64,000 bases of DNA. It comes from Glaciecola sp. Lineage in GTDB: Bacteria; Pseudomonadota; Gammaproteobacteria; Enterobacterales; Alteromonadaceae. The stretch covers positions 47,366 through 111,365 of the forward strand of contig JAQWNF010000006.1 of NCBI GenBank assembly GCA_029246415.1, given 5' to 3'. Under the pieces are notes generated by a model. It was not told where the DNA came from. It saw only the letters and a list, made by a program, of their open reading frames with translations, and ran no database searches. A program made the translations under genes and the position numbers. Within the stretch, counting starts at the first letter, position 1, and the number at the start of each line of letters is the position of its first letter. This document shows positions 18,191-31,588 of the stretch, one piece after another.

Positions 18191-19018
18191 TCACAAATCA
18201 AACCTTTCTATTAAAAACTTAGCAACACCATCATCATAATTATGTCCGATAACCTTAGTCGCTTTGTCTTTGATAAAGGCCTTTGCGTTATCCGGCGCAT
18301 AACACTCATCTGCTATTTCAAACATACTTAAATCATTATCACTATCGCCAAAACAGATGACATTTTTGGCACCTAATTTATCTCGTAATTTTTGTACCGC
18401 CGCGCCTTTATTGGCAAAGCAATGATGTACATCCATCCAACTATATTCTTTGCCCTCATTTGCCGGGCCCGAATAGGCTATGATGCGTGGATGCTGATTG
18501 AGCTGTGTCCACATTGCCTTAATATGAGTATTTTCACCAATCATACTAATGTTCGTTACCGCTCTATCATGCGCTAATGCGTCTAATGGCATCAATGTGG
18601 CCTGTGAACGCGCAAAATATTTAGTAATAAGCTCTTTCTCAATATTATGCTGAGGCGGGCTGTGATAAATCACATGATGATGATTTTCTACGGTATTTAC
18701 AAAGGGCGTAATATTATGTTCTAGCGCCATGGCCAAGATCAAATCAGTCTCATTTTCAGTGAGTAAATTCTCAAACTCAATGCTTTGTTGTTGCGGATCC
18801 CAAAGGGTTACCCCATTGTTATAAATATGCGGTAGCGATAAAAACTGTCCTTTCAAAATCGGACTAGCAGATAACATTGTTCGTCCTGTGGCGACGGTAT
18901 AGGCGATACCTTGCGAATCCATTTTACTGAGGGTGTCTATAGTGAATTGAGACAGTGTGGAGGAGCCATTTAATAAGGTCCCGTCTAAATCAAAAAAAAC
19001 TAAATCCATAAATGTCAT
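18191..19018 (-). CDS. Cof-type HAD phosphatase
   Basis: HAD superfamily subclass IIB phosphatase, about 270 residues. Motif I is FFDLDGTLLNG near the N-terminus and motif II is TVATGRT. The motif III lysine is near NKGAAVQKL and motif IV is CFGDSDNDLSMFEIA. The cap domain lies between motifs II and III. Relatives dephosphorylate sugar phosphates, pyridoxal phosphate or FMN, and the substrate here is unknown. The start may be the ATG at 19009 (MDLVFFDLDGT) rather than 19018; neither has a strong ribosome-binding site. Confidence 0.88.
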   Translation of the reverse strand: MTFMDLVFFDLDGTLLNGSSTLSQFTIDTLSKMDSQGIAYTVATGRTMLSASPILKGQFLSLPHIYNNGVTLWDPQQQSIEFENLLTENETDLILAMALEHNITPFVNTVENHHHVIYHSPPQHNIEKELITKYFARSQATLMPLDALAHDRAVTNISMIGENTHIKAMWTQLNQHPRIIAYSGPANEGKEYSWMDVHHCFANKGAAVQKLRDKLGAKNVICFGDSDNDLSMFEIADECYAPDNAKAFIKDKATKVIGHNYDDGVAKFLIERFDL

Positions 19019-23851: not shown

Positions 23852-25333
23852 TTAATGACGGTTAGACCGAATTAACCCCAGCATATAAGCCATGTTATCT
23901 GCTGGATTATTATCCCCAACCCCCCATATATAAAAAAGTCCGCCTTTCTCAAAGACACCCATAGTGTACAGCTGTCCTTGGACTCGCGGTGCCCAAAACG
24001 CAGCGGATTGGCATATTGCTGTCATTGTTTCAGGGGGGATATCTGATTCTTTTATGACCCACATATCTTTTTTGATATAAAACGCATCATCTCCCATATC
24101 TTCTAATAATAGCGCAATTGTGCGGGGTTGATACGATCCAAGGATACAATTAACAGTGTCAGTAAAACGTTTGATGATAGTGGGGGATTCAAAATGTGTC
24201 GCCGTTGGCAATTTGGGTGAATCAATGGGCGCTGTTTTTAAGACCATATGATCGGGTAATTTAGCCAAATAGCTAATATTTGGCTCACCGATTAATTGGC
24301 TGATAGACGAAGTGATAATATTGGCGAGATCTTGATGGTCGAGTTGATGTGAGTTTGGCGCAGCTGATTGCAAAGCTCCATACACAGCTATATCGTTATT
24401 TAATAATTCATGGGCTAATAATGTTTGTATACACTCAGGAAATTGCTCAATAGTTGTTAATTGCGGTTCAGCCGTCACAACTTGCTGACGCACCCATGTG
24501 GTAAATGATTGGATACTCGCCTCACACAAATATCGAATGGCAAACATGCCTCGATGATTCAGTTCTTCTTCAATATACAACTCGGGCCATTGGGTTTGCC
24601 ATATGGGGAGTTGGGCTTGCACTGATTTTTGATACTGAGCAGGAAGCCACCAAGAAAATATTTTAGATGTTGTTGTTTCGTTTTCAACAATATTCACGGA
24701 TTTTATTTGATAAATAATAGGCCGCTTAATACTTTTTAGTACCTGTTCATTTTGAACGCTTAATTTATTACGCACTCTTCTAGAGACGTGATAAATGTCA
24801 GCTTCGGTTATGCCACTGGCAATTATAGTTAGAGCACTATCTTGGTAATATTGTGATTTGTAAGTATACACATCATGTGCAGTGATTTGCGCAAGCATAT
24901 CGGGGAAACCACCCCAATGTTGATAGGCATCAGGATGTTGATCCCCTCGCCATATTTGAGACTGCCTTTGATAAGCGGGATGTTTAGCATAAAACGCCAG
25001 TTCGTGTTGGATCACTGATTTTTCTTGTTCGATATCACATGCTGCATAGGTATGGGTCATCAAACCTGCATATAAGTATTCAATCAATAAGAGTAAGTCT
25101 TCGGCAGTATTCGCTTGGACAAAATAATAGCTCTTATCCCCAGTCGTGCTAGCGTTCATTTTACAGCGAGTAATACTCGTCAGCGCAAATAGATTATGAC
25201 GCTCTGGAAATAGGGTGGATGTTCGAAACACTAAATGTTCGACTAAGTGACCGATACCTGAATGATCCATTGCCGGTGAGGGAAGGGTGAAGACAGCTGC
25301 GAACTCAGGTTGTTTAACAATATGGATATTCAT
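23852..25333 (-). CDS. M16 metallopeptidase of the PQQ cluster (PqqF-like)
   Basis: A zinc peptidase-like protein of 493 residues, last gene of the leftward PQQ cluster. HLVEHLVF is the inverted zinc motif HxxEH and the downstream EQEKSVIQHE supplies the third ligand. The sequence around it (AMDHSGIGHLVEHLVF) is closer to PreP-type M16C peptidases than to classical PqqF. It is roughly half the length of Klebsiella PqqF. It presumably helps cut the PqqA peptide after PqqE acts. The start at 25333 has GGGAGG upstream. It follows pqqE by 32 bp. Confidence 0.78.
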   Translation of the reverse strand: MNIHIVKQPEFAAVFTLPSPAMDHSGIGHLVEHLVFRTSTLFPERHNLFALTSITRCKMNASTTGDKSYYFVQANTAEDLLLLIEYLYAGLMTHTYAACDIEQEKSVIQHELAFYAKHPAYQRQSQIWRGDQHPDAYQHWGGFPDMLAQITAHDVYTYKSQYYQDSALTIIASGITEADIYHVSRRVRNKLSVQNEQVLKSIKRPIIYQIKSVNIVENETTTSKIFSWWLPAQYQKSVQAQLPIWQTQWPELYIEEELNHRGMFAIRYLCEASIQSFTTWVRQQVVTAEPQLTTIEQFPECIQTLLAHELLNNDIAVYGALQSAAPNSHQLDHQDLANIITSSISQLIGEPNISYLAKLPDHMVLKTAPIDSPKLPTATHFESPTIIKRFTDTVNCILGSYQPRTIALLLEDMGDDAFYIKKDMWVIKESDIPPETMTAICQSAAFWAPRVQGQLYTMGVFEKGGLFYIWGVGDNNPADNMAYMLGLIRSNRH

Positions 25334-25365
25334 TAGCCTCCCTCAGCATGTTGCAGCATAGGCGA

Positions 25366-26526
25366 TTATTCTTGGATCAAATGGACTGGAATATCAGTTT
25401 TGGGATCGCGGTAAAATAAGTTTTCTCTTGGCTGCTTGGACTTTGCGATAGCCGCCTGGATCAAATAATGATCAGGTGATTTATCACAGACTGGGTCGGT
25501 TTTATGCATATCACCGGTGAGCATAAATGCCTGACAACGACATCCACCAAAGTCCTTTTCTTTTTCATCACAATCGCGACAAGGTGAAGGGAGCCAATCT
25601 AGTCCACGAAACTTATTAAATGAAAAGTCTTCGTGCCATATTTTCTCTAATGACGACTCTTTCACATTAGGGAAAGTCAGAGGTAATATTTTCGCACTAT
25701 GACACGGTAGGGCAGAGCCATCGGGTGTGACGGTTAAAAAGGTTGTTGCCCAGCCATTCATACAAGCCTTAGGGCGCGTTTCATAATAGTCTGGCGTGAC
25801 AAATATAAACTTAGGCTCATCATCACCTTGAGTATCTCTAAATCTATTCACTGTTGCTTCAGCTGCCACAAGCTGTTCTTTCGTGGGCAGTAGATGGTCA
25901 CGATTTAAATATGCCCAGCCATAATATTGTACGGTTGCCAACTCGACAAAGTCGCCTCCCAACTCACAACTCAGCGCGAGTACATCAGCGATTTTATCTA
26001 TGTTTTGGCGCGTTAAACAAAAATTAAGCACCATCGGATAATCGTATTGCTTAACTAATTTAGCAACCGCTAACTTTTGTTCAAAAGAATGACGTTTGTT
26101 ACCAATAAGATCATTTTCATCGGCATTGGCTGCTTGGAAACTTAGTTGAATATGGTCAAGTCCAGCCTCTTTTAACCCTTTTATACGTTTTTCAGTCAAG
26201 CCAATGCCTGAAGTGATTAAGTTAGTATAAAAACCCAATTCACTGGCATGTGCAACTAATGCTTCTAAATCTTTGCGTAGTAAAGGCTCACCACCGGAGA
26301 AGCCAAGTTGCACTGCGCCCATTTCACGAGCTTCGCTTAAGACCTTTTTCCACGTTTCTGTATCACACTCATCTTTGCGTTCACTCATTTGCACTGGATT
26401 AGAACAATATGGACAATGCAGAGGACAATCATAAGTGAGCTCCGCAAGGAGCCATAATGGATTTTTCACATCTGTTTTTAAGACAGGTTTACTCGACATA
26501 CTTGATCCACTTTTTTTCATGGGCAT
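25366..26526 (-). CDS. pqqE: PQQ biosynthesis radical SAM enzyme PqqE
   Basis: Radical SAM enzyme that forms the Glu-Tyr carbon-carbon crosslink in PqqA with PqqD as chaperone. The 386-residue protein has the cluster motif CPLHCPYCSN near residue 40, GFSGGEPLLRKDL for SAM binding, and C-terminal SPASM cysteines (LPCHSAK, CRDCDEKEKDFGGCRCQAF, DPVCDKSPDHY). Its 5' end overlaps pqqD by about 38 bp; the exact start may be the internal ATG (MSSKPVLK). It is in the canonical order B-C-D-E. Confidence 0.97.
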   Translation of the reverse strand: MPMKKSGSSMSSKPVLKTDVKNPLWLLAELTYDCPLHCPYCSNPVQMSERKDECDTETWKKVLSEAREMGAVQLGFSGGEPLLRKDLEALVAHASELGFYTNLITSGIGLTEKRIKGLKEAGLDHIQLSFQAANADENDLIGNKRHSFEQKLAVAKLVKQYDYPMVLNFCLTRQNIDKIADVLALSCELGGDFVELATVQYYGWAYLNRDHLLPTKEQLVAAEATVNRFRDTQGDDEPKFIFVTPDYYETRPKACMNGWATTFLTVTPDGSALPCHSAKILPLTFPNVKESSLEKIWHEDFSFNKFRGLDWLPSPCRDCDEKEKDFGGCRCQAFMLTGDMHKTDPVCDKSPDHYLIQAAIAKSKQPRENLFYRDPKTDIPVHLIQE

Positions 26527-26752
26527 GATCTAAGAACTCGTGAATATCCTTATCAATGCCTTCGACATCTGGAAATTTAGCTACTAGTTCACTGATGATA
26601 GTATCAACGTCACGTTGCCCATTGACCATTTGTATGATTTCACCGGCACTGCCATTGAGTGTGATCATCCCTTCAGGGTATAACAGCACAAAAGCATCTT
26701 GGGCTTTTTCAAATTGAAATTTATATAATGGATTAAGTTTGGGAGTTGCCAT
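26489..26752 (-). CDS. pqqD: PQQ biosynthesis peptide chaperone PqqD
   Basis: An 87-residue RiPP recognition element that binds PqqA and presents it to PqqE. KLNPLYKFQFEKAQDAFVLLYPEGM and LNGSAGEIIQMVNGQRDVDTII are the diagnostic PqqD segments. Its start overlaps the pqqC stop by one base and its end overlaps pqqE, so the three are translationally coupled. Confidence 0.96.
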   Translation of the reverse strand: MATPKLNPLYKFQFEKAQDAFVLLYPEGMITLNGSAGEIIQMVNGQRDVDTIISELVAKFPDVEGIDKDIHEFLDHAHEKKWIKYVE

Positions 26753-27510
26753 TACATGAAGCCTTTGTGAGAAATATTTTCGTCAGTCACCGCGCCAAAA
26801 GGTTTGCGGTTAAATTCATATGCTAAGCTGATACTATCTGCCATACTCCATAAGACATCAAGTTTGAATTGCAAAATGTTTAATGCACGCTCTTGTTGTT
26901 TACGAGTTTCAAAATGATCTAAGGTGATTTCTAAACCATGCTGTACATCTCGACGCGCTTGATTTAAGCGCATTTGAAAATAGGAGAATCCTTCTGGATC
27001 AATCCATTTATAATGTGTCGGCCATGTATCGAGGCGACTTTGATGGATTTCAGGGGCAAACATTTCTGTTAGTGACGAACAGGCTGCTTCTTCCCAGCTC
27101 GCTTTACGCGTGAAGTTAATATATGCCCCGACCGCAAACTTCACACCAGGCAATAAAAAGCGTTCGTTGAGCATATCTTCACGATTTAAACCCACCGCTT
27201 CACCTAGACGTAACCAAGCCTCAATACCGCCTAAAGTGGTATCTTCAGGATCGCCATCATGATCTAAAATGCGCTGGATCCATTTACGTCGAGTTTGCAG
27301 ATCCCAGCAATTGGCCATGATCCCAGCATCTTTTACCGGGATAGCTAATTGATAAAATAAGCGATTGGCGACCCATCCTTGAATTTGTTCTTGGGTACAT
27401 TCGCCTTTATTCATTGCTACATGAAAGGGATGATAAATATGATAGTACTCGCCTTTACCACGGAGCTTAGCTTCAAATTCGTCGCGAGACCAAGGTGCTT
27501 GCTTTGTCAT
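26752..27510 (-). CDS. pqqC: Pyrroloquinoline-quinone synthase PqqC
   Basis: Cofactorless oxidase that performs the final ring closure and eight-electron oxidation to PQQ. The 252-residue all-helical protein has [34 protein letters not shown] and the [12 protein letters not shown] segment that place the conserved His, Lys and Arg of the active site. It is next after pqqB, with 9 bp between. Length and motifs are standard. Confidence 0.97.
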
Positions 27511-27519
27511 AAGATATCC

Positions 27520-28440
27520 TTAAATCGTAATTTGCATGCCATCATAGGCTAATTCAATACCATTATCGCGCAGATAGGCATTAGCAGTTGAAGACTCATC
27601 GAGTATTGGGTTTGTATTATTAATGTGGATCAATATTTTCCGTTCGATATCGTACTGTTGTAACAATGCTACGGTGCCATCAGGACCATTTACTGGCATG
27701 TGACCCATTTGTGAGCCGAGTCGGTTACTGAAGCCTTTTTGGATCATCTCATCATCCAGCCATAAAGTACCGTCAAATAGAGCGCAGCTAGATTGTTCGA
27801 GCATATTTTTCACTAAATCACTGGCTTGTACACATCCTGGCGCATAAAACACACTTTTGCCGGTGGCATCATCCACAATCTGCAAACCAATGTTGTTCCC
27901 ATCCACTATATTATCGCGATACTTCGAATAAGGTGGAGCATTAGATTCTAATACAATTGGGTGAAACGTTAAACCAGAGACCCCTTCAACTTGAAATCCT
28001 GGCTCATGAGTAGTACCAATCGCGTGGCGTTGCAATCCCCCATGCCAGTGTTTCAGCATGGGAAATACAGGAAAAGCGGTACTTAAATCTTCATAGACCA
28101 CATCGGTGCAGTAAACGGGTAATGGTAAACCTTCACGCAACGTCAGTAGACCTGTGGTATGGTCGATTTGACTATCAGTTAAAATAATCGATTTAATCGC
28201 GGTACCACGCTGCTGTCCATCGGCGGGCCATAATAAGGGAGATTGATTAATTTGTTGGCGAATATCGGGTGAGGCATTAATTAAGACCCAATCTTTTCGG
28301 TTGCTCGATACAGCTATACTCGACTGTGTGCGCTCGCGTACCGCTAAGGTATTATTTCGGCAACCCGCACAATTATCACAATGACAGTTCCACTGTGGTA
28401 CGCCGCCACCAGCACCTGAGCCTAAAATTAATATATACAT
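27520..28440 (-). CDS. pqqB: PQQ biosynthesis metallo-beta-lactamase-fold protein PqqB
   Basis: A metallo-beta-lactamase-fold protein of 306 residues, proposed hydroxylase of the Tyr moiety in PQQ formation. GSGAGGGVPQWNCHCDNCAGC carries the structural zinc Cys set, and TDSQIDHTTGLLTLREG is the metal-site His/Asp region, modified from HxHxDH as usual in PqqB. It lies 65 bp after pqqA across an attenuating hairpin, so it is probably expressed below pqqA. Confidence 0.96.
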   Translation of the reverse strand: MYILILGSGAGGGVPQWNCHCDNCAGCRNNTLAVRERTQSSIAVSSNRKDWVLINASPDIRQQINQSPLLWPADGQQRGTAIKSIILTDSQIDHTTGLLTLREGLPLPVYCTDVVYEDLSTAFPVFPMLKHWHGGLQRHAIGTTHEPGFQVEGVSGLTFHPIVLESNAPPYSKYRDNIVDGNNIGLQIVDDATGKSVFYAPGCVQASDLVKNMLEQSSCALFDGTLWLDDEMIQKGFSNRLGSQMGHMPVNGPDGTVALLQQYDIERKILIHINNTNPILDESSTANAYLRDNGIELAYDGMQITI

Positions 28441-28457
28441 AGTCCTTCCCTAAGAAC

Positions 28458-28485
28458 AAAAAAGGCTGCCAGTTGGCAACCTTTT
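28458..28485 (-). terminator. Attenuating terminator between pqqA and pqqB
   Basis: On the minus strand AAAAGGTTGCC-AACT-GGCAGCCTTTTTT forms a stem with one G-U pair and a T-tract, in the pqqA-pqqB gap. Partial read-through here would give high pqqA and low pqqB-E mRNA, as known in other PQQ operons. Confidence 0.85.
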
Positions 28486-28505
28486 GACAAAAAATTAATG
28501 AGTGC

Positions 28506-28577
28506 TTAGCGATTGCTAATATATAGCGTTACTTCAAAGCCAAGACGCATTTCATTGTACTGAGGTTTAGTCCACAT
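28506..28577 (-). CDS. pqqA: PQQ precursor peptide PqqA
   Basis: A 23-residue peptide, too short for the ORF track, that reads [19 protein letters not shown] and ends ISNR. E15 and Y19 are the residues crosslinked by PqqE to build PQQ, in the conserved E-x-x-x-Y spacing. GGAG lies 8 bp upstream of the ATG. It opens the leftward pqqABCDE order. The match to known PqqA peptides is essentially diagnostic. Confidence 0.96.
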
Positions 28578-28649
28578 AGTATTTCTCCGTTGTTTACATT
28601 GTTACTTTATTTACGTTGTATTAACAAAGAATATATTACAGATTTGAAC

Positions 28650-28679
28650 CTAAAAAAATATCCTCCTTTAGGAGGGATC
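28650..28679 (-). terminator. Rho-independent terminator of the aminopeptidase gene
   Basis: On the minus strand ATCCCTCC-TAAA-GGAGGATA followed by TTTTTTT lies 9 bp after the M17 gene stop and about 75 bp before pqqA. It separates the aminopeptidase transcript from the PQQ operon, whose promoter must lie between here and 28577. Confidence 0.82.
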
Positions 28680-28687
28680 ATCTCATT

Positions 28688-30157
28688 CTAAGTTCCCAGT
28701 TTACTACTCATTTTTAAATATTGTAACAATAAGGGTAAAGGCCTACCTGTTGCTGAATTACCCGTTCCATGCATAAATGCTGTACCAGCTACATCCAAGT
28801 GTATCCAAGGTACATCATTAGTATAGCGTGATAAAAAACAGCCAGCACTGATTGCACCAGGGGAGTTAACACCAGCATTCATCATATCGGCAAACGGACT
28901 ATCAATCGCTTCTTGGTATTCATCCCATAATGGCATTTGCCAAGTGCGATCAAAAGACACTTCACTAGCATTTAATAATTGCTGTGCTAAATCATCATGG
29001 TTACTGACCATGAAACTGCCCACATGCCCAAGGCTTTGAATGGCGGCGCCGGTCAACGTGGCAATATCAATAATAGCCCTTGGAGTAAAACGCTGAGCAA
29101 ACGTCATAACATCAGCGATAACAAGGCGACCTTCGGCATCAGTACTCATGATCTCAACCGTTTGCCCTGATAGGGTAGTGAGAATATCACCCGGTCGATA
29201 GGCATCCCCATCGGGTAGGTTCTCTACTGCTGCGACAACACCAATAATATTAATATTTAACTGTAATTGGGCAATAATTTGGATGATCCCCACGATAGTC
29301 GCGGCCCCGCACATATCATAGGTCATATGACCCATCCCAAGTGCTTTTTTCAATGTGATCCCACCAGCATCAAAAGTTACCCCTTTACCAATGAGTACAA
29401 TCGGTTTACCACCCCCTCCTTGGTAATGAATGACTGACATATGAGCAGGATTATTGCTACCGCGACCTACTGCTGTATATGCCCCCATTCCCAGAGCTTC
29501 AATAGCCTCGGCGTTAAATATATCCGTCGTAATAGTATCAAATTTTTCAGAAAGTAAACGTGAGTGCTCAGCAAGGTAAGCGGGTGTACAAATATTTGCC
29601 GGTAAATTAGCGAGGTCTTTGGTGAGCCACATGCCATGATTTAACGCGTTAAGTTCATCCAAACATACCATAGTTTCATTCGCTGAATAGAACTCGATTT
29701 GAGGCACACTAAAGTCAGGCTTGGCAGTTTTAAACACATCAAATTCATAAAAAGATTGGATAAAATGGGTCAATAAGCAAAACGTGATAGATGTGTCATG
29801 CTTGACCATATCTGCCAGTCTAACTGTGCTGGAAGCTTGAATATTGAGCCCTTTAGTAACACCTTTTATTAAATTGAAGAGCCGCTCTTCCGGCAACACT
29901 TCGGGCAAACACAAGAGTGTCAAAGATAATAATTCGGTACCTATTGGGCAATAAATGGATATGAGTTCGCCCTTATTGAAAGACGCTGAAAAGGTGTCTA
30001 TGACCTTTTGAATGTGCATCCGAGTCGGACTCTCAAATACAGACAAGGCATGTTTTAATGACGTTTCAGACACTAGCATGATTAAATGCGTGTTCGATGT
30101 CAATAATTCACTAGAATCAATAACTGGTTGATAACATTGGTGGGGAAGTATTTTCAT
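28688..30157 (-). CDS. M17 leucyl aminopeptidase
   Basis: Two-metal cytosolic aminopeptidase of 489 residues in the PepA/M17 family. The C-terminal catalytic domain has GKGVTFDAGGITLKK (metal-binding Lys/Asp) and STDAEGRLVIAD (the family NTDAEGRL motif with Ser in place of Asn). TYDMCGAATIVG is also conserved. The N-terminal half is more divergent. It lies just upstream of pqqA on the same strand but is separated by a terminator. It might trim PqqA-derived peptides, or be a general peptidase unrelated to PQQ. Confidence 0.88.
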   Translation of the reverse strand: MKILPHQCYQPVIDSSELLTSNTHLIMLVSETSLKHALSVFESPTRMHIQKVIDTFSASFNKGELISIYCPIGTELLSLTLLCLPEVLPEERLFNLIKGVTKGLNIQASSTVRLADMVKHDTSITFCLLTHFIQSFYEFDVFKTAKPDFSVPQIEFYSANETMVCLDELNALNHGMWLTKDLANLPANICTPAYLAEHSRLLSEKFDTITTDIFNAEAIEALGMGAYTAVGRGSNNPAHMSVIHYQGGGGKPIVLIGKGVTFDAGGITLKKALGMGHMTYDMCGAATIVGIIQIIAQLQLNINIIGVVAAVENLPDGDAYRPGDILTTLSGQTVEIMSTDAEGRLVIADVMTFAQRFTPRAIIDIATLTGAAIQSLGHVGSFMVSNHDDLAQQLLNASEVSFDRTWQMPLWDEYQEAIDSPFADMMNAGVNSPGAISAGCFLSRYTNDVPWIHLDVAGTAFMHGTGNSATGRPLPLLLQYLKMSSKLGT

Positions 30158-30359
30158 GCGTTCATGCTACTGAAAATATGAGTGGGAGACAAACTTTTTA
30201 CACACAAAAGAAATTCATATTCAGATAGCATGGCATTTCTTGTCAAAGAAATAATAGTGAATCACTTGAGCTGATTATCTTTACTGTCGCTGAGCTAGCT
30301 TACTAGCACCTTAGGGTTATCCCTCATAAGTGGCCCCAACTTTTTATTATATCCTGATA

Positions 30360-30896
30360 CTACCAAAGACTAGGATCATTTAATGCCTCGACACACTGAG
30401 TATTTCCCGACATCGGCTGAATCTTTTGACCATTAAGAGATTGTGCAAGCCAACCCTCAGGCATACTCAAAGGACAAGGTGCTTTCACAATACTTTCATT
30501 GATTTGCTCAAAGCCTATTTTAGAGTAGTAACTGGGGTCGCCATATGTAAAGGCCAAACTTACATTTTTTGACCTTAGATGATCTAGTCCATATTGTATT
30601 AGCTTTTGACCAATGCCTTGACCTTGATAATGAGATGCAATTGCAACAGGGGATAAGATGAATGCAACCTGCTTACCGGGAACAGTAAAGCGACTAAAGC
30701 ACAAACTTCCAATTACGTTATCTTGCTCTTCTGCGGTCAAGATAATTAAATCTTGTGGTTGAGTCGTCTTAATTAAATTTGTAACAAAATCGGATATTAT
30801 TTGTCCTTCGTTCTCTCCCTCTGATGCGGTGAATACATCTTTAAAAAGCGTAATCACTTTTTGAGGGTTAGAGTCATTAAATATCCAATATTTCAT
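30360..30896 (-). CDS. GNAT-family N-acetyltransferase
   Basis: A 178-residue acetyltransferase. The acetyl-CoA-binding motif A is LSPVAIASHYQGQGIGQKLI (Q-x-x-G-x-G) and FTYGDPSYYSKIGFEQI supplies the usual motif B. The acceptor cannot be read; relatives acetylate amines, amino acids or antibiotics. AGGA lies eight bases upstream of the ATG. It is a lone gene between the PQQ region and the tRNA-scar island. Confidence 0.82.
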   Translation of the reverse strand: MKYWIFNDSNPQKVITLFKDVFTASEGENEGQIISDFVTNLIKTTQPQDLIILTAEEQDNVIGSLCFSRFTVPGKQVAFILSPVAIASHYQGQGIGQKLIQYGLDHLRSKNVSLAFTYGDPSYYSKIGFEQINESIVKAPCPLSMPEGWLAQSLNGQKIQPMSGNTQCVEALNDPSLW

Positions 30897-30958: not shown

Positions 30959-30997
30959 TGGTGGCCCGACCCGACATGAACAGGAGACCTGCCGATT
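30959..30997 (-). repeat. Duplicated 3' part of the CAT tRNA
   Basis: TGGTGGCCCGACCCGACATGAACAGGAGACCTGCCGATT matches the 3' half of the tRNA at 31512-31551 over 39 nt with one deletion and two substitutions. It covers the CCA end, T arm and variable region and stops at the anticodon arm. It cannot fold as a tRNA. It ends 2 bp from the stop of the cyclotransferase gene and is in the same orientation as the intact tRNA. This is the pattern left when an element integrates at a tRNA 3' end. Confidence 0.8.
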
Positions 30998-30998
30998 G

Positions 30999-31331
30999 TT
31001 AGTTTGAGTGGTTAAGTGCATAGACAAAGGCTTTAACTTTATTACCATTTTCGAGTTTAACTTCCACTAGTACTCTACTATAACCACTACCCTCATAATC
31101 ATCTAACATCGCCCAATTCTTTGATAAATCCTTGGAGGTGAGTACATAGCCTTTCACTTTTTCGCCTTCATTAGATGGAATAATTCCCGGACACCCTAAT
31201 TCAGCTCCCCAGCCTTCATTAAATAATTTACCTCGTAAGGTTGCCATTTCCCAAGTGCCAATAATATCTTTCAATACACTATGATTTTCTTTTCCGGGTG
31301 CCAGTGTGCCATAAACAAAAAGCTTTTCCAT
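30999..31331 (-). CDS. Gamma-glutamylcyclotransferase-like protein
   Basis: A 110-residue protein of the GGCT-like (AIG2) fold. FVYGTLAPGKENH is the substrate-binding loop and E80 in DDYEGSGYSRVLV is the catalytic acid. Relatives release 5-oxoproline from gamma-glutamyl compounds; the exact substrate is unknown. It is the only gene between the intact tRNA and its duplicated 3' part, so it is probably cargo of a small inserted element. It is leftward, like the tRNA, with the stop 2 bp from the scar. Confidence 0.85.
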   Translation of the reverse strand: MEKLFVYGTLAPGKENHSVLKDIIGTWEMATLRGKLFNEGWGAELGCPGIIPSNEGEKVKGYVLTSKDLSKNWAMLDDYEGSGYSRVLVEVKLENGNKVKAFVYALNHSN

Positions 31332-31511
31332 ATTATCTTCTTTTATGAATTTAATTCAAAAATTTAAACATGTTTTAATGTGAGTGGCAACGTCGTCGTG
31401 CGTTTATTTAAAAATATTGGAGCACTTATTTTTTTAGATCCAATTTGATAGTTGTATAGCAAAAACCTAAGCATTATAAGGTAGAGTATTGCAGGTGATA
31501 ATTGAAAAAAA

Positions 31512-31588
31512 TGGTGGCCCGACCCTGACTTGAACAGGGGACCTGCCGATTATGAGTCGGATGCTCTAACCAACTGAGCTATCGGGCC
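31512..31588 (-). tRNA. tRNA with CAT anticodon (probably Ile2, otherwise Met)
   Basis: A full 77-nt cloverleaf with encoded CCA is read on the minus strand. It has acceptor GGCCCGA/TCGGGCC, D arm GCTC...GAGC, anticodon loop CTCATAA and T arm CCCTG-TTCAAGT-CAGGG. The anticodon is CAT. The GGCCC acceptor and TTCAAGT loop resemble tRNA-Ile2, whose C34 is modified to lysidine, more than elongator Met. A T-run follows the 3' end and may terminate it. Part of its 3' half is duplicated at 30959. Confidence 0.95.

Follow-up and report, generated by a model that had tools for sequence, protein, structure and literature searches.

A small gene of the GGCT/AIG2-like family lies between the elongator tRNA-Met gene of a Glaciecola sp. 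genome and a decayed duplicate of this tRNA's 3' part, and we consider it likely that this arrangement is an immobile relic of two stacked and decayed islands at an integration hotspot. The tRNA-proximal relic would have left the GGCT gene as its cargo, and the second one a GNAT acetyltransferase gene. The window, that is, the whole stretch of DNA analysed, is 64,000 nt long, and the features concerned are collected in Table 1.

Table 1. Features of the tRNA-Met locus (positions in the window)
Feature	Position	Strand	Remarks
HAD hydrolase gene	18191-19018	minus	directly after the tRNA in G004; bounds the whole variable region
24-nt sequence AGTTGGGGCCACTTATGAGGGATA, cargo/module junction sequence of sibling islands	30318-30341	minus	exact match; module behind it missing
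GNAT acetyltransferase gene, 178 aa, probable cargo of the second relic	30360-30896	minus	
Decayed att copy, corresponding to tRNA nt 33-77 from the anticodon loop through CCA	30959-31002	minus	40/45 identical, anticodon loop 5/7
GGCT/AIG2-like (PF06094) gene, 110 aa, probable cargo of the tRNA-proximal relic	30999-31331	minus	Pfam E 1.6e-18
Intact elongator tRNA-Met (CAT), putative integration target	31512-31588	minus	ARAGORN; same 77-nt gene, identical, in G005, G006 and G008
Anticodon loop of tRNA-Met, putative overlap	31550-31556	minus	

A GGCT gene between tRNA-Met and a decayed copy of its 3' part

The single tRNA gene detected in the window by ARAGORN is tRNA-Met(CAT), and downstream of it, in the same orientation, lies a fragment of its 3' part. 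This fragment gave a local alignment score of 83 compared to a maximum of 38 among 300 shuffles, and BLAST within the window aligned it with 88% identity across 49 columns (E 7e-10), in agreement with an earlier note on this DNA that had described a CAT tRNA with a same-orientation 3' copy. The note had given the copy 39 nt (30959-30997); the copy itself is real, but its extent has to be revised, as it reaches 31002 when placed on the 45-nt repeat of the congeners. This repeat corresponds to tRNA nt 33-77 (CTCATAATCGG...CCACCA), from which the window copy departs by four substitutions and one deletion. Its anticodon loop reads CTAACAA, versus CTCATAA in tRNA-Met (two of the seven positions differ), and the T-stem of the copy is disrupted. 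A search of the window from 18 to 32 kb for further att copies returned none besides these two.

The interval between the tRNA and the copy spans 508-509 bp and has 34% G+C, compared to a window mean of 41.2% (SD 3.6). GGCT is its sole ORF, with an intact frame. The earlier note had proposed one GGCT-like gene between the repeats, which we could assign from its sequence to PF06094 (67.8 bits for a gathering cut-off of 22.8), GGCT activity being predicted; the stop codon had been placed 2 bp away from the copy, but the TAA falls within it. No tyrosine integrase lies between the repeats, and zero PF00589 matches were obtained on the contig of the window, as expected from the note's statement that the integrase is gone.

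Relatives of GGCT were detected in five of ten genomes of the genus, including that of the window, the nearest one being in G006 (62% identity). At the tRNA-Met position, GGCT was found in no congener among the ten genomes searched. The earlier note had held that finding GGCT and the copy at this place in all distant relatives, with empty sites in none, would refute its reading; GGCT is absent from there in the congeners.

Other origins of GGCT were considered and rejected. A phage origin is weakly documented: a single large Acinetobacter phage, present as two records, has a GGCT with 43% identity, and the viral contigs scanned contained no relative. For a plasmid origin, the best plasmid DNA matches span only the tRNA-like stretch (query 600-695). 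Finally, the stop region of GGCT reads CTAACAA, resembling an attC core site, and the GGCT relative in L025 also has an attC-like sequence behind the gene; by inspection, the 3' sequence of the window gene is tRNA-derived and lacks the matching second core site of an integron cassette. The same inspection revealed no paired core sites behind GGCT and no attC behind GNAT.

Integrase-bearing islands at the tRNA-Met gene of congeners

Copies of tRNA nt 33-77 were looked for in the ten genomes of the genus. They were found in G003, G004, G005, G006 (twice), and G008 (twice), mostly with 96-100% identity. In G003, 8.2 kb separate the copy (96%) from the tRNA, with the origin lying between them; in G006, the copies (96% and 100%) are found 30.6 and 43.5 kb downstream. 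All three share the orientation of the tRNA. The copies in G004 and G005 and the two in G008 lie on contigs other than that of the tRNA. In G012, which belongs to another genus, three copies follow tRNA-Met at intervals of 8.3, 22.9, and 4.1 kb.

The islands of G003, G004, and G006 share a module of five genes. The first three encode proteins of 505, 100, and 124 aa, the fourth encodes a serine recombinase (PF00239), and the last one a tyrosine integrase (PF00589). At intact right ends (G003 and G006), about 0.2 kb separate the end of the integrase gene from an att copy, whose core is directly adjoined by the conserved arm CATTCAGCTTAG. Judged from ORF translations, the cargo varies between islands and comprises heavy-metal-type genes, cysteine synthase, cytochrome b561, and others. 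Since congener islands with integrases, 45-nt direct repeats, and differing cargo sit at the same tRNA, the tRNA-Met gene is, as judged from these comparisons, a genus-wide hotspot for tRNA-3' integration. This supports the earlier note in seeing here the geometry of integration at a tRNA 3' end. G006 also carries a relic island, made of the junction sequence, the C-terminus of the 505-aa protein fused to the C-terminus of the integrase, and then an att copy (att765). It represents an intermediate stage of a decay similar to that at the window locus.

The module itself showed some peculiarities. The 505-aa protein (L129 3678-5195) matches phrog_4756, an uncharacterised family, and its DYSG and HDSFIV motifs may recall motifs A and C of family-A polymerases; no solved structure convincingly matched a 505-aa module protein. 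In one G003 copy (L130 50-1945), the serine-recombinase and tyrosine-integrase frames are joined as one 631-aa ORF, and in the second (L131) they form two overlapping frames.

A module-edge sequence behind the GNAT gene

The 24-nt sequence AGTTGGGGCCACTTATGAGGGATA, present once in the window, was found elsewhere in the genus, exact or with two changes, only in G006 (three times) and G004 (once), and each time it marks the passage from the end of the cargo to the start of the integration module or its remnant. The reversed pattern, used as a control in the genus, gave zero matches. Both islands of G003 carry a slightly different version at the same junction. The DNA upstream of the 24-mer is unrelated between islands, and the DNA downstream aligns among sibling modules. 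Behind the GNAT gene of the window, nothing of the module survives past about 25 bp.

Because this exact cargo/module junction sits behind GNAT, two relics appear to be stacked at the locus. From its sequence, the order att copy, GNAT, junction is probably the left part of an island deprived of its module, and the att copy looks like the left att of this second, older relic. The whole layout would appear as tRNA-GGCT-(lost)-att-GNAT-junction-(lost). The earlier note had treated a single 0.5-kb mini-island with one gene as the unit, which is probably wrong given the survival of the junction at 30318-30341. A simpler account, in which a single GGCT element at tRNA-Met shrank to 0.5 kb while GNAT and the 24-mer result from unrelated earlier events, is the most direct reading of the tRNA-gene-copy geometry, and the flanks fetched for GNAT relatives elsewhere in the family place them away from tRNAs; we regard it as rather improbable, as it leaves unexplained the exact module-junction sequence right behind GNAT.

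At every island seen, a 21-24-nt edge sequence (AAGTTGGGGCCACTTATGAGG...) was present (window 30318-30341; L128 977-1000; L129 3571-3594; L136 13212-13235; L130 4749-4769; L131 6014-6036), and from G003 to G006 its conservation exceeds that of the adjoining DNA. This sequence may have a function, such as serving as the site of the serine recombinase or of cargo exchange. A GNAT 69% identical to that of the window was also found in L161 (G305) with an attC-like sequence behind the gene, so that integron cassettes may be another vehicle for this GNAT family.

Occupancy of the locus in relatives

The tRNA and the HAD gene are 166 bp apart in G004, versus 12.5 kb between the tRNA and the HAD orthologue of the window, and roughly 93 bp at the start of the stretch upstream of HAD are 80% alike in both. 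On the other side of tRNA-Met, the DNA is conserved in G001, G002, G004, and G005. Relatives carry other cargo or none at the same tRNA. No congener showed a precise empty site lacking GGCT alone, in which GNAT would come immediately after the tRNA. The same variable region contains a PQQ-like cluster with an M17 peptidase (window 23852-30157); close relatives of this peptidase occur in only two of nine congeners (G006 and G008), that of G006 being on the same contig as its tRNA-Met.

Proposed history of the locus

A tyrosine integrase would recombine islands into the anticodon loop of tRNA-Met, each incoming island rebuilding the tRNA with its own 3' half and displacing the old 45-nt 3' half as a direct repeat, so that successive islands would stack at this gene. 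A first island, A, would have extended between the att copy and a distal att now lost; its recombinases would be gone, leaving the GNAT cargo and the 24-nt start of the integration module. Island B would have inserted later between the tRNA and A, with GGCT as its surviving cargo. Its module and right arm would then have been lost in a deletion that began immediately after GGCT and ended where the core starts, the present 0.5 kb being the remainder of this younger island. The tRNA, the copy, the hotspot with its sibling modules, the junction sequence, and the lack of a close integrase homologue are observations. The order of events and the deletions are inferred, as is a crossover in the anticodon loop, which is suggested by the repeat beginning precisely at this loop. 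Three points count against the two-island account: the junction between GGCT and att is very clean for a random deletion, no precise tRNA-GNAT empty site was seen in the congeners, and the module behind GNAT is gone but for about 25 bp.

In G006, minor-pilin-like genes flank a two-gene unit made of relatives of GGCT and GNAT (the latter about 70% identical over the longer sequenced part, its middle being masked). The two genes are separated by 5 bp, with neither a tRNA beside them nor a scar. The pair may either be often assembled or have arrived together and then been split. Arrival of both genes as an operon, with a tRNA-3' copy placed between them later, for instance by secondary-site integration followed by loss of the element, would fit this adjacency. 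Moreover, altered or off-target junctions do occur, as element right ends are joined to a coreless CTCAACTTT instead of the tRNA core in G006 (L128 5590-5840) and, near-identically, in G005, a junction that is either a secondary site or the product of a deletion. Nevertheless, this scenario requires a chance landing 0.2 kb behind the very tRNA that islands target, joint descent of GGCT and GNAT is not shown by their trees, and GNAT relatives outside the genus have no neighbouring GGCT; we therefore hold it to be unlikely. The pairing in G006 nevertheless counts against the two-island account, which needs no joint arrival.

Under the two-island account, both cargo genes have become an ordinary part of the chromosome, and excision of the segment is not to be expected. 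The earlier note had left the choice between a relic and a satellite mobilised in trans. The relic is favoured. For the 0.55-kb tRNA-GGCT-att segment to be an active minimal single-gene cassette moved by an integrase encoded elsewhere, along with the tRNA-Met islands of the genus, both repeats are correctly oriented, the GGCT frame is intact, and the genome does contain other tyrosine recombinases. But the anticodon loop, the likely overlap, is changed, this genome, 99% complete, has nothing closer to the hotspot integrase than a match of 24% identity over part of the protein (E 3.7e-6), and no element arm accompanies the att copy, the right end being missing; for these reasons, a cut-and-paste satellite appears very improbable, and the viral contigs scanned offer no relative of GGCT either.

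The proposed history is one of ordinary genome evolution, in which genes brought in by mobile islands at a tRNA hotspot would become fixed in the chromosome. Deletions would strip the stacked islands of their recombination modules, and single cargo genes, a worn tRNA fragment, and a module-edge sequence would remain.

Comparison with known islands

The locus resembles the tDNA islands of Islander in its tRNA and displaced same-orientation 3' fragment (PMC4383910). In this set, about half of the islands (2083 of 3919) use an anticodon-centred site, and tandem arrays are known (PMC4383910); tyrosine recombinases that target tRNAs commonly use the anticodon loop as a 7-bp overlap (PMC8371274). 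Having no integrase, a length below 2 kb, and a decayed copy, the window locus does not pass the integrase and length filters (PMC4383910). It is thus a degenerate member of the tDNA-island kind and not an island by Islander's criteria, and such genes would escape scanners that demand an integrase or a minimum length of 2 kb.

Like cis-mobilizable elements (CIMEs), which are discussed along with accretion in PMC3146451, the locus holds cargo between att sites and has no recombinase, and related elements use the same site. A CIME keeps functional attL and attR; here, the anticodon loop of one site is changed (5/7 identical), and no helper was found, the best match in the genome being the distant one described above.

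The ssrA islands of Dehalococcoides are inserted in tandem at one RNA gene, some of them without integration modules (PMC3146451). They share with the window hotspot this tandem arrangement, a conserved module at one edge, several module-less members, and cargo between direct repeats, but they rely on a serine recombinase and tmRNA (PMC3146451), whereas the window hotspot involves a tyrosine integrase, tRNA-Met, and a degenerate repeat.
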